Below, piece by piece: positions 9,560-64,000 of a DNA stretch of 64,000 nucleotides (position 1 is its first letter; each line of letters begins with the position of its first letter). Position numbers and translations under genes: made by a program. The DNA comes from Clostridia bacterium 41_269 (GTDB lineage: Bacteria > Bacillota > DTU086). The stretch spans positions 31,787 to 95,786 of the forward strand of contig LGEZ01000004.1 of the NCBI GenBank assembly GCA_001508005.1, written 5' to 3'. Under the pieces are notes generated by a model, which saw only the letters and a program-made list of their open reading frames with translations, made no database searches and was not told the origin of the DNA.

Positions 9560-9633
9560 GCGGGTGTAGCTCAGTGGTAGAGCCCTGGCCTTCCAAGCCA
9601 GTCGCGTGGGTTCGATTCCCATCACCCGCTCCA
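9560..9633 (+). tRNA. tRNA-Gly(TCC), CCA encoded
   Basis: Cloverleaf by eye: acceptor gcgggtg/cacccgc, anticodon loop cttccaa, T-arm gggttcgattccc, cca end. Confidence 0.95.
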
Positions 9634-9659
9634 TTGTTTTATTATGATGGTTTTTACAA

Positions 9660-9736
9660 GCGCCTGTAGCTCAGCTGGACAGAGCAACGGACTTCTAATC
9701 CGTGGGTCGCAGGTTCGAATCCTGCCAGGCGTACCA
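9660..9736 (+). tRNA. tRNA-Arg(TCT), CCA encoded
   Basis: Anticodon stem acgga/tccgt, loop cttctaa; acceptor gcgcctg/caggcgt; cca end. Confidence 0.94.
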
Positions 9737-9764
9737 GGTTTTAATATTATTGAATTTTTAGCGG

Positions 9765-9811
9765 ATTACCCCCTCAAAAGAATCTGTTGTCTAGGGAGGG
9801 GGTAATTTTCA
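9765..9811 (+). terminator. Rho-independent-like terminator after tRNA-Arg
   Basis: Inverted repeat attaccccct ... agggggtaat followed by ttttc. Confidence 0.6.
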
Positions 9812-10046
9812 TATTTATGGATGTTATGGAATTAATTTATTTTATTTTAAAAAAGGTTTGCATATTTACTTATGGTTAGGTACAATATAAACCGTGAATG
9901 TTTTAAAGAATATAAAAACACAGCTTTTGGTAATAGGTGGGGAAATACTTAAAAAATTTTTTGCTAAGCAATATAAAAAATAAAAATAGATAACCAAGGG
10001 TGCTTGACAAAAAACCCATATCTCTGTTATATTATTTCTGCGCTGT

Positions 10047-10124
10047 GGTGGATGTAGCTCAGTTGGTCAGAGCACCAGATTGTGGCTCTGGGGGTCGTGG
10101 GTTCGAGTCCCATCATCCACCCCA
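10047..10124 (+). tRNA. tRNA-His(GTG), encoded G-1, CCA encoded
   Basis: Anticodon loop ttgtggc between ccaga/tctgg; acceptor gtggatg/catccac with G-1 opposite C73. Confidence 0.94.
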
Positions 10125-10157
10125 AATAGAAGCTAAATTTTTTATTGCTCTGTTTAT

Positions 10158-10232
10158 TGGGGCGTAGCCAAGCGGTAAGGCAGCGGGCTTTGGACCCGCG
10201 ATGCGCAGGTTCGAATCCTGCCGCCCCAGCCA
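10158..10232 (+). tRNA. tRNA-Gln(TTG), CCA encoded
   Basis: Anticodon stem gcggg/cccgc, loop ctttgga; acceptor tggggcg/cgcccca. Confidence 0.94.
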
Positions 10233-10259
10233 TAATGGGAAAAGGAAGGAACGTTATGT

Positions 10260-10335
10260 GGGCCATTAGCTCAGTTGGTAGAGCACCGGACTTTTAATCC
10301 GGGTGTCGGAGGTTCGATCCCTCCATGGCTCACCA
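10260..10335 (+). tRNA. tRNA-Lys(TTT), CCA encoded
   Basis: Anticodon stem ccgga/tccgg, loop cttttaa; acceptor gggccat/atggctc. Confidence 0.95.
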
Positions 10336-10362
10336 TATTATTTTTTAAATGATTTTCTTTTT

Positions 10363-10448
10363 GCGGGAGTGGCGGAATTGGCAGACGCGCTAGACTTAGG
10401 ATCTAGTGAGCAGTGCTCGTGGGGGTTCAAATCCCTTCTCCCGCACCA
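10363..10448 (+). tRNA. tRNA-Leu(TAG), long variable arm, CCA encoded
   Basis: Acceptor gcgggag/ctcccgc; anticodon loop cttagga between ctaga/tctag; class II variable arm; 86 nt. Confidence 0.94.
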
Positions 10449-24164: not shown

Positions 24165-24304
24165 AAAACTTAAAAACTTAAAAAGAATTTAAAATAAAAA
24201 TTAAATTAATTTCCCATAAAATATGCGGCACTTGACTTTACTGAAGTTCACCGCTATTATAATTGTAGGTTGCAGCTAATAATTATTTAATAAAAATAAA
24301 TATT

Positions 24305-24555
24305 AAAGCCGATGAACAGGAGTGGTAGCCTGTTTACTACCGCAAGAGAGGAAAACCCTTAGGCTGGAAGGTTTTCTCGGTGAGGGACGGGTGACGTCGC
24401 CTGGGAGAATCCCTGCTGAAAGGGCTTTATGCCTTAGTAAGGGGGACGGTGGGACCGTTAAACCCGAATGAGTTTTGCGTACTTAATGTACGAAATAAGG
24501 TGGTACCGCGGAAGAGCTCCTTCCGTCCTTAACGGGAGGGGCTTTTTATTTAGAT
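24305..24555 (+). ncRNA. T-box leader upstream of valS
   Basis: T-box core aataaggtggtaccgcgg (24494-24511), AGAGAGG and GCTGGAAGG stem I motifs, terminator agctccttccgtccttaacgggaggggcttttta. Candidate Val specifier GTC at 24396-24398 (position inferred). Confidence 0.93.
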
Positions 24556-47005: not shown

Positions 47006-47280
47006 CAGATTGTTGATAATAGGTCTCTGCCGCAGTTTTCTCACTCCTGAACTCACGCTGGACAACTCTAAGCAAAACTTAAAGTCAAAACCGGACCGCC
47101 CCAAATTCGACATCCTATCTCAGTTGGTGCTGGCGCTCACCTCCTGTTCGCGCCTCCCGGTTTTGCCTTACGCTTTGTTAAGAGCTGTTAGCCAGCGTTC
47201 GTTAAGTCGTTTCGCAAACTACAGCAAAGACCTATTAAGATTTTAAGATTTATTTAAGAAAGTTTGTCAACAGGCTGGGG
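47006..47280. mobile_element. 275-bp imperfect long palindrome (MITE/foldback-like) flanked by 21-bp direct repeats
   Basis: Ends cagattgttgataa ... ttgtcaacaggctg are approximate inverted repeats; internal inverted pairs aataggtctctgccgcagttt/aaactacagcaaagacctatt, acgctgg/ccagcgt, caaaaccgg/ccggttttg. Confidence 0.68.
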
Positions 47281-62579: not shown

Positions 62580-63131
62580 TTAGTTTTTATCAGCGGCATT
62601 ACTGCCGCTGTATTTTTTGTAAAAAGCTTCTTTTTCATCAGGTTTGAGGCTCCGGTCTATAACAGCTGCTATAAGCAGGATAGCTGGTATGTTTATGAGC
62701 CAGCGGGTAAGGGCAAATTTTACCCCCAGGGCGGACATTTCAAATATAAGCATAGGTATCTTAAGGGTTGACCAGGCACATAGAAAAACTATAATGTTAT
62801 AATACTTTACTCCTTTTTTTGCCATAACTTCTGCAACAGGAAACGCACCGTACAGAGGACCTGCGGCAGCAGCACCGAGAAGGATGCTTAAAACAGGTCC
62901 TTTTAAGCCTGCATTTTCTCCCATGTACCTCATAACTGTTTTTTTGGGCACCCATGTATCCAGAAGTCCCAATAGTATAAATACAGGAGGCAGTATTCCC
63001 AGCATTTCCATAAAGTTGGAAAAGGTATGGTGAAAAATCATTTTTCCCTTTTCAGGATCGAGGAAAAGAATTATCAGATCAAATGAAATGATCAGCAGAA
63101 AAACTTTGTAAATTTTAAGGAATTTTTTCAT
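62580..63131 (-). CDS. Permease half-subunit (DUF318/ArsP-like)
   Basis: VFILLGLLDTWVPKKTVMRYMGENAGLKGPVLSILLGAAAAGPLYGAFPVAEVMAKKGV; paired with the adjacent gene. Confidence 0.78.
   Translation of the reverse strand: MKKFLKIYKVFLLIISFDLIILFLDPEKGKMIFHHTFSNFMEMLGILPPVFILLGLLDTWVPKKTVMRYMGENAGLKGPVLSILLGAAAAGPLYGAFPVAEVMAKKGVKYYNIIVFLCAWSTLKIPMLIFEMSALGVKFALTRWLINIPAILLIAAVIDRSLKPDEKEAFYKKYSGSNAADKN
62591..62617 (+). terminator. Terminator for proA, embedded in the 3' end of the convergent permease CDS
   Basis: cagcggca ttac tgccgctg followed by tatttttt. Confidence 0.7.
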
Positions 63132-63610
63132 GGTTTTACCACCATTCCTAATATTAAAGCTGCAATGAAGGAATAGATATAACTTAAACCGTTGCGAAGT
63201 AAAGTTTCTTTCTTGCCGAAGTATTTTATTTCAAGGGGTGCGGTGACAATTCCTACCATCATTAGGGTGGAGACAAATACTGCTACCTGCATAATTCCTG
63301 CTCCCCTATCCAACACAGATTTTGCTAGCGGGAAAGCTATAAAGCCGGGTATTAAAGTGATGGAACCGACTATGGAGCTTAAAAACATTCCCCCAAAACC
63401 CGATTTTTCGCCTAAAAATTTAACAATAAGCTGAGGGGAAATGTATGTCAAAAGTATTCCAACCAGAGCAAGGACGCTGGCAAAATCAGGTAAAATTGAG
63501 GAAAAAGATTTATATGCCTTGGCAAGGGAAGTTTTTGTTTTTTCTTTATCTTTAGTGAAGGAAAAGATTAGTGCACTTATGGCCAAAATGTATGCAATAA
63601 GGGTAAACAT
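63128..63610 (-). CDS. Permease half-subunit (DUF318/ArsP-like)
   Basis: LVGILLTYISPQLIVKFLGEKSGFGGMFLSSIVGSITLIPGFIAFPLAKSVLDRGAG; overlaps the next gene by 4 nt. Confidence 0.78.
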   Translation of the reverse strand: MFTLIAYILAISALIFSFTKDKEKTKTSLAKAYKSFSSILPDFASVLALVGILLTYISPQLIVKFLGEKSGFGGMFLSSIVGSITLIPGFIAFPLAKSVLDRGAGIMQVAVFVSTLMMVGIVTAPLEIKYFGKKETLLRNGLSYIYSFIAALILGMVVKP

Positions 63611-63726
63611 TGTTATTCCTCTCCTTGTACTATAGAGTTAGTTTTAATTAGCTCCAAGCCAATAGACTTGATCCTTGACAACCACATAGGAATTCCCGGG
63701 GCAACTCAGATAAATATTCTCGTAAA

Positions 63727-63923
63727 GGCAGGGGGCTTCGATCAACCTCCTTAGGAAGCTTTCGCTGTCCTGAAGTAAAGAGTGAAGCCCTGCCCATACC
63801 AGAGGACTCGAATGAGCACGTTGTGGATACAGCTTGCTGTATGCCGCGAGTTACGCGCAAGGTTGAGTGGCTCGTAAGGGTTGCGGGGACCCTGCCTAAA
63901 TTCAATGAAAGTAGGGATATAGA
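63727..63923 (+). ncRNA. Candidate IS110 bridge-RNA-encoding region
   Basis: Stems ggcagggggcttc(63727-63739)/gaagccctgcc(63784-63794) with large internal loop; atacag-cttg-ctgtat (63827-63842); cgcg-agtta-cgcg (63845-63857); agggt-tgcgggg-accct (63877-63893). Confidence 0.42.
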
Positions 63924-64000
63924 ATGTTCTATGGTGGCGTTGATGTGGCCAAGTATTGTCATGAGGTATGCCTTGTTGATGACGCTGGCGATGTTGTACT
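63924..64000 (+). CDS. IS110-family transposase, N-terminus only (runs off the window)
   Basis: ATG TTC TAT GGT GGC GTT GAT GTG GCC AAG ... = MFYGGVDVAKYCHEVCLVDDAGDVV, matching the DEDD-type GIDVAKxxH start. Not in the ORF track because it has no stop. Confidence 0.85.
   Translation, partial: MFYGGVDVAKYCHEVCLVDDAGDVV

Follow-up and report, generated by a model that had tools for sequence, protein, structure and literature searches.

Here we report that a 64,000-nucleotide stretch of DNA from Clostridia bacterium 41_269 (contig LGEZ01000004.1, positions 31,787 to 95,786; hereafter the window) ends in the left part of an IS110-group insertion sequence, and that this left end very probably encodes a bridge RNA in which loop 1 reads the target and loop 2 reads the element's own ends, with an anti-Shine-Dalgarno (anti-SD) guide directing insertion. 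The evidence comprises the anatomy of the element, a conserved RNA structure, covariation of guide and flank on both sides, a CT core with a matching empty site, and the Shine-Dalgarno (SD) context of the insertions. The first-pass annotation of this DNA had proposed an IS110-type bridge RNA; it had not recognized that the guide is an anti-SD sequence and the flank a ribosome-binding site.

The last base of the window (64000) is base 95786 of its contig (C26) and also the end of that contig, so that the element cannot be followed any further. A second copy in the same genome, 361 bp long and 96% identical to that of the window, makes up the end of contig C15; C26 and C15 both break off at the identical base within the recombinase gene, as a repeat that interrupts an assembly would produce. 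Right ends likewise occur at the ends of two contigs of this genome (C23 and C11), and read ...CTATTGACTCTTCGTAGCACGTCT followed by TTATATTAAATT or TTCGTGTAGACC. The start of the element, at about 63626, was set by aligning the two own-genome copies and seven full copies from G039, a complete genome of the same phylum, and is backed by an empty site in the relative G149 and by an alignment of 13 related left ends. At this junction the flank ...CCTCTCCT gives way to the element, TGTACTATAGAGTTAG..., the left target half CCTCTC and the core CT (63624-63625) together occupying 63618-63625 (+), where the - strand carries an SD sequence. The left end (LE) is noncoding and spans 298 nt (63626-63923, +), while the right end (RE) is short, roughly 70-90 bp; a full-length relative in G039 measures about 1.6 kb. 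An element within 63650-64000, with about 270 nt of noncoding sequence before its gene, had been anticipated: both the element and its noncoding end are present, the latter being longer than estimated and the junction falling just outside that range.

The recombinase gene starts at an ATG at 63924, as had been proposed, and opens MFYGGVDVAKYCHEVCLVDDAGDVV, with about 75 bases of the gene inside the window (63924-64000, +). Its product matches the Pfam domain DEDD_Tnp_IS110 weakly (E = 0.0038) because only 25 amino acids are present, and is identical at 19 of these 25 positions to the start of a full-length relative of 407 amino acids (L025, in G039). In that relative both DEDD_Tnp_IS110 and Transposase_20 domains were found, a score of 272.7 bits, against a cut-off of 140, was obtained with the NCBIfam model NF033542 ('IS110 family RNA-guided transposase'), and the nearest solved structures are the IS621 and ISCro4 entries.

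The left end contains a two-loop fold at 63727-63880 (+) resembling the IS621 bridge RNA, in which the long stem noticed earlier (ggcagggggcttc/gaagccctgcc) pairs 63727-63739 with 63784-63794 and encloses a large internal loop. Nine related left ends share a common fold of two stem-loops with internal loops, and a covariance model (R1) detects about 50 relatives in 32 of 399 genomes of the phylum (the host class holds only four genomes), and scores 165 bits at the target- and donor-binding stem-loops of the window. Across 43 distinct aligned sequences, standard pairs fill 93% of the paired cells, compared with only 36-46% when the pairing partner is slid by 1-3 columns; both sides have changed in 32 of the 45 pairs, and double-change cells number 139 against 37 after shuffling, a value reached in 0 of 500 shuffles. 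While the alignment was fitted to the structure and thus favours it, the margin over the controls is nonetheless large. These data support the prediction that the left end encodes a structured bridge RNA, as had been suggested for 63727-63923, with a core narrowed to 63727-63880. No family in Rfam matched the RNA at gathering thresholds, and searches of plasmid, phage and viral collections likewise gave no match.

Loop 1 of IS621 carries the left target sequence on its 5' side and, on its 3' side, the complement of the right target, core dinucleotide included (PMC11208160). The same layout is found here. In the window, as in most relatives, the left target guide (LTG) on the 5' side of the target-binding loop (63746-63752, +) reads CCTCCTT, an anti-SD sequence; the left flanks carry CCTCCTT or a close variant, and all seven full G039 copies have CCTCCTT there. 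The right target guide (RTG) on the 3' side, GAAGTAAAG (63772-63780, +), pairs with CTTTA.. of the right flank, bases 63775-63780 being complementary to it; the own-genome right flanks available for comparison are CTTTATATT and CTTTCGTGT. Guide-flank pairs were extracted according to a fixed anchor rule, a few of them being corrected manually, and the table for the right side was entered by hand. On the left, a mean of 6.84 of nine positions match per locus. In a sample holding one entry per genome and guide, left matches over the nine positions total 212, compared with 181.8 +/- 4.9 expected (0 of 100,000 permutations), and the 13 guides lacking CCTCC give 82 matches against 62.7 expected (5 of 100,000). 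The excess falls mainly at -9, -8, -6 and -5, and positions -12 to -10, which act as an internal control, have little or none. On the right, positions +1 to +4 of the right target (RT) give 50 matches against 25.2 expected, or 54 against 28.4 when two more loci are included, one of them a misfit (0 of 100,000 permutations in either case); positions +5 and +6 carry no covariation signal. It is important to note that the permutations take no account of common descent; the flank, however, belongs to the host and is newly acquired at every move. Selection of the insertion site by the loop 1 guides is thereby supported on both sides at the sequence level, in agreement with the earlier assignment of the internal loop to target binding.

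The result does not depend on the majority guide, because members with other guides have correspondingly different flanks. The sequence AGTCGCCTTT occurs in guide and flank alike in L064 (G084), and AGATCCTT in guide and left flank of L061 (G267), whose right side reads CTTCGCT in both; L058 pairs a CCCCCTT guide with a CCCCCTT flank. In L074 (G390) the guide CCGCCCCCTT faces the flank CCGCCTCCTT, at a site apparently within coding sequence. As L064, L061 and L074 belong to the same clade and carry guides that are not anti-SD, with targets changed along with them, they are cases of natural retargeting.

Since the guide is an anti-SD sequence in most members, insertions fall immediately before ribosome-binding sites: read on the strand that does not encode the recombinase, the flank is AAGGAGG with a start codon after it. 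All seven G039 copies precede an open reading frame (ORF) of at least 111 codons that starts 7-12 nt beyond the SD sequence. Overall, 27 of 45 loci lie before an ORF of 40 or more codons at SD-like spacing, a count that takes in loci truncated by a contig end as well as those whose guides are non-SD. As controls, an ORF start follows 41 of the 99 AAGGAGG sites sampled from 400 kb, and 15% of random positions. Comparison of the seven of seven G039 copies with these 41 of 99 sites indicates that selection probably adds to the bias, and motif recognition combined with selection against insertion inside genes explains the landing pattern. A resemblance to the guide is also expected at the 3' end of 16S rRNA genes; no insertion there was noticed among the loci collected here.

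The ribosome-binding site targeted in the window belongs to a gene for an ArsP_1-like permease half (63128-63610, -; PF03773, E = 1.2e-6, just under the cut-off), with its ATG at 63610 and the SD sequence AAGGAGA at 63626-63620 of the - strand. The gene beside the second own-genome copy (C15) is NAD-epimerase-like, as judged by eye from its translation. One G039 copy (L027, G039:C1:2112200-2117200) sits immediately upstream of the ribosome-binding site of tuf, which encodes elongation factor Tu. No orthologue of the window permease was found in genomes G001-G003 to provide a local empty site, and the tuf site in relatives was therefore used.

At the empty tuf site of G149 the sequence CCTCCTTAATTATGTAG is uninterrupted, whereas the occupied site of G039 reads CCTCCT-TGTAC...GCACGTCT-TAATTATGTAG, with the element ending in CT. 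The single CT of the empty site thus becomes a CT at each end of the element, as expected of recombination at a core. The base after CT varies at right ends, giving a CT-type core without further target duplication. In the second loop, the putative left donor guide (LDG) AGCACGT (63815-63821, +) equals the right-end terminus (AGCACGT-CT), and in L074 donor guide and right-end donor have changed in concert, both being AGTAGGT. A candidate right donor guide (RDG), GTTACGCGCAAG (63850-63861, +), may pair discontiguously with CTTGTAC, as judged by eye and by analogy with IS621.

Joining the ends of the window's element brings a -35 box TTGACT in the right end to 17 bp from a -10 box TACTAT in the left end (63628-63633, +), the arrangement of a sigma-70-type promoter. 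The equivalent promoter (TTGAC[TA] separated by 17 bp from a TA-N3-T -10 box) occurs in 11 of the 11 elements for which both ends are available, and a junction promoter is accordingly predicted for the circular form. The element further contains a 27-bp subterminal inverted repeat, the left copy of which (63670-63696, +) matches the right end (L043/L044) at 24 of 27 positions, where shuffles reach at most 17. Core-clade members match at 20-26 of 27, and the repeat is missing from the two distant members compared. Its arms sit well inside both ends, and in the circle roughly 100 bp would separate them across the junction.

By homology with IS621 we infer RNA production, binding and catalysis. 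Excision would yield a circle in which the right-end -35 box meets the left-end -10 box, and this junction promoter would drive transcription of bridge RNA and recombinase. Loop 1 would pair with target DNA and loop 2 with the element's own joined ends. The LTG, CCUCCUU, would pair with the AAGGAGG strand, that is, with the SD sequence, and the RTG with the A/T-rich spacer that precedes it. Exchange of strands at the CT core common to both partners would then leave the element immediately in front of the ribosome-binding site, with SD sequence and start codon intact and the target gene pointing away from the recombinase gene. That the guide, whose sequence matches the anti-SD tail of 16S rRNA, also pairs as an RNA with the SD sequences of mRNAs, including the recombinase's own weak one, and so tunes translation, we consider unlikely.

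Several observations weigh against guide-directed insertion as drawn here. The left flank of the window copy, CCTCTCCTT, agrees with its own guide at only 6 of 9 positions, and its right flank is that of either C23 or C11. Misfits were also seen on the right side of L071, L063 and L085 and on the left side of L070 and L087. Pairing of the LDG with the CT core itself is poor, and the recombinase of the window copy is cut at 25 amino acids, its remainder being absent from the assembly.

The structured left end could instead be an mRNA leader that regulates translation of the recombinase (cf. the sRNA-regulated leader of ISPpu9), the SD sequence being read by protein alone. Leaders in the IS110 family are described as able to regulate tnp expression (PMC8450116), and most members have one guide, so that those loci alone cannot separate reading by RNA from reading by protein. 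A protein reader, however, does not predict that different loop sequences are accompanied by correspondingly different sites, and the right guide covaries independently; judged by this guide-flank covariation in the sequences, the alternative appears already largely refuted, and we regard it as very unlikely. Even less can be said for copies before SD sequences being mere survivors of random insertion, other sites being harmful: although all seven G039 copies precede an ORF start, as against 41 of the 99 AAGGAGG sites sampled, the insertion boundary falls at one base of CCTCCTT in those seven copies (one with an extra T), and non-SD guides are matched by non-SD targets, which leaves this explanation with almost no probability.

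Membership in the IS1111 subgroup, with the ~27-bp repeat as its subterminal inverted repeat (sTIR) and the left RNA as something else, draws on the report that sTIRs are present in IS1111 elements and absent from IS110 types (PMC11187229), together with the 24/27 repeat found here. Against it, the RNA and the long noncoding end are on the left and the right end is short, the closest solved structures are IS621 and ISCro4, and the repeat lies well inside both ends and does not flank the donor; we consider such membership highly improbable. Covariation, guide-target complementarity and a left-end RNA were thus all found, and the outcomes named beforehand as refuting a left-end bridge RNA (an IS1111 element with a right-end RNA, or a lack of either signal) did not materialise.

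Where the hosts of the related elements have names, most belong to thermophilic or syntrophic Firmicutes (Thermosediminibacter litoriperuensis, Thermovorax subterraneus, Thermacetogenium sp., Syntrophomonas sp., uncultured Thermoanaerobacterales). The window's own genome also holds a distant IS110-type recombinase relic (L042, G000:C4:79500-85000; 24-42% amino acid identity); one reading of it contains an in-frame TGA, and covariance model search found no bridge RNA of this type there. Elsewhere in the window are two neighbouring half-size ArsP_1-like permease genes (62580-63610, -), a match to the Rfam TwoAYGGAY RNA (47049-47204, -; 53.7 bits, cut-off 43), a T-box leader (24303-24533, +; 93.4 bits, just over the cut-off of 93), and a cluster of six tRNA genes (9560-10445, +).

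The element resembles IS621 and the IS110 group (Durrant et al. 2024, PMC11208160) in its left-end RNA with two internal loops, its layout of LTG, RTG and putative LDG, a CT core within the pairings, an RE-LE junction promoter, and a DEDD recombinase with Transposase_20. The recombinase is longer, at 407 amino acids in the relative versus 328 in the IS621 PDB chain. Repetitive extragenic palindromic (REP) elements are the target of IS621, whereas the target here is the SD region. The ~27-bp subterminal inverted repeat also departs from accounts of the IS110 group, which give 2-3 bp; the lack of long repeats of this kind is a described tendency of that group and no mechanistic requirement. As in IS1111-type/seekRNA systems (PMC11187229), a guide RNA would pick the target and subterminal inverted repeats are present; the IS1111 RNA, however, is at the right end, and that of this element at the left. 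IS900 of Mycobacterium avium subsp. paratuberculosis, another IS110-family element, from a different phylum, has a similar reported target motif, CATGNNNNNNTCTCCTT, made up of a start codon and an SD sequence on the opposite strand (PMC8141618, citing Doran et al. 1997). Unlike IS900, with its reported antisense hed ORF spanning the element, the present element has none, the longest antisense stop-free stretch being 115 amino acids. Our literature search, outside of which lay most subscription journals and preprints, found no work joining IS900 or SD targeting with a bridge RNA guide. The mechanism is thus of the known IS110-group bridge RNA type, and the SD-like target class is not new given IS900; what seems to be new is the explanation by an anti-SD guide, together with the ~27-bp subterminal inverted repeat. 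With the collection comes a set of full-length bridge systems from Firmicutes, rich in thermophiles, whose 7-base target is very common; it should help in working out how short guides cope with targets spread over a genome and how insertions close to genes are survived, and it shows natural retargeting, a changed loop going with a correspondingly changed site. For insertion before ribosome-binding sites, known before from the reported IS900 target motif, it offers an explanation at the level of RNA.
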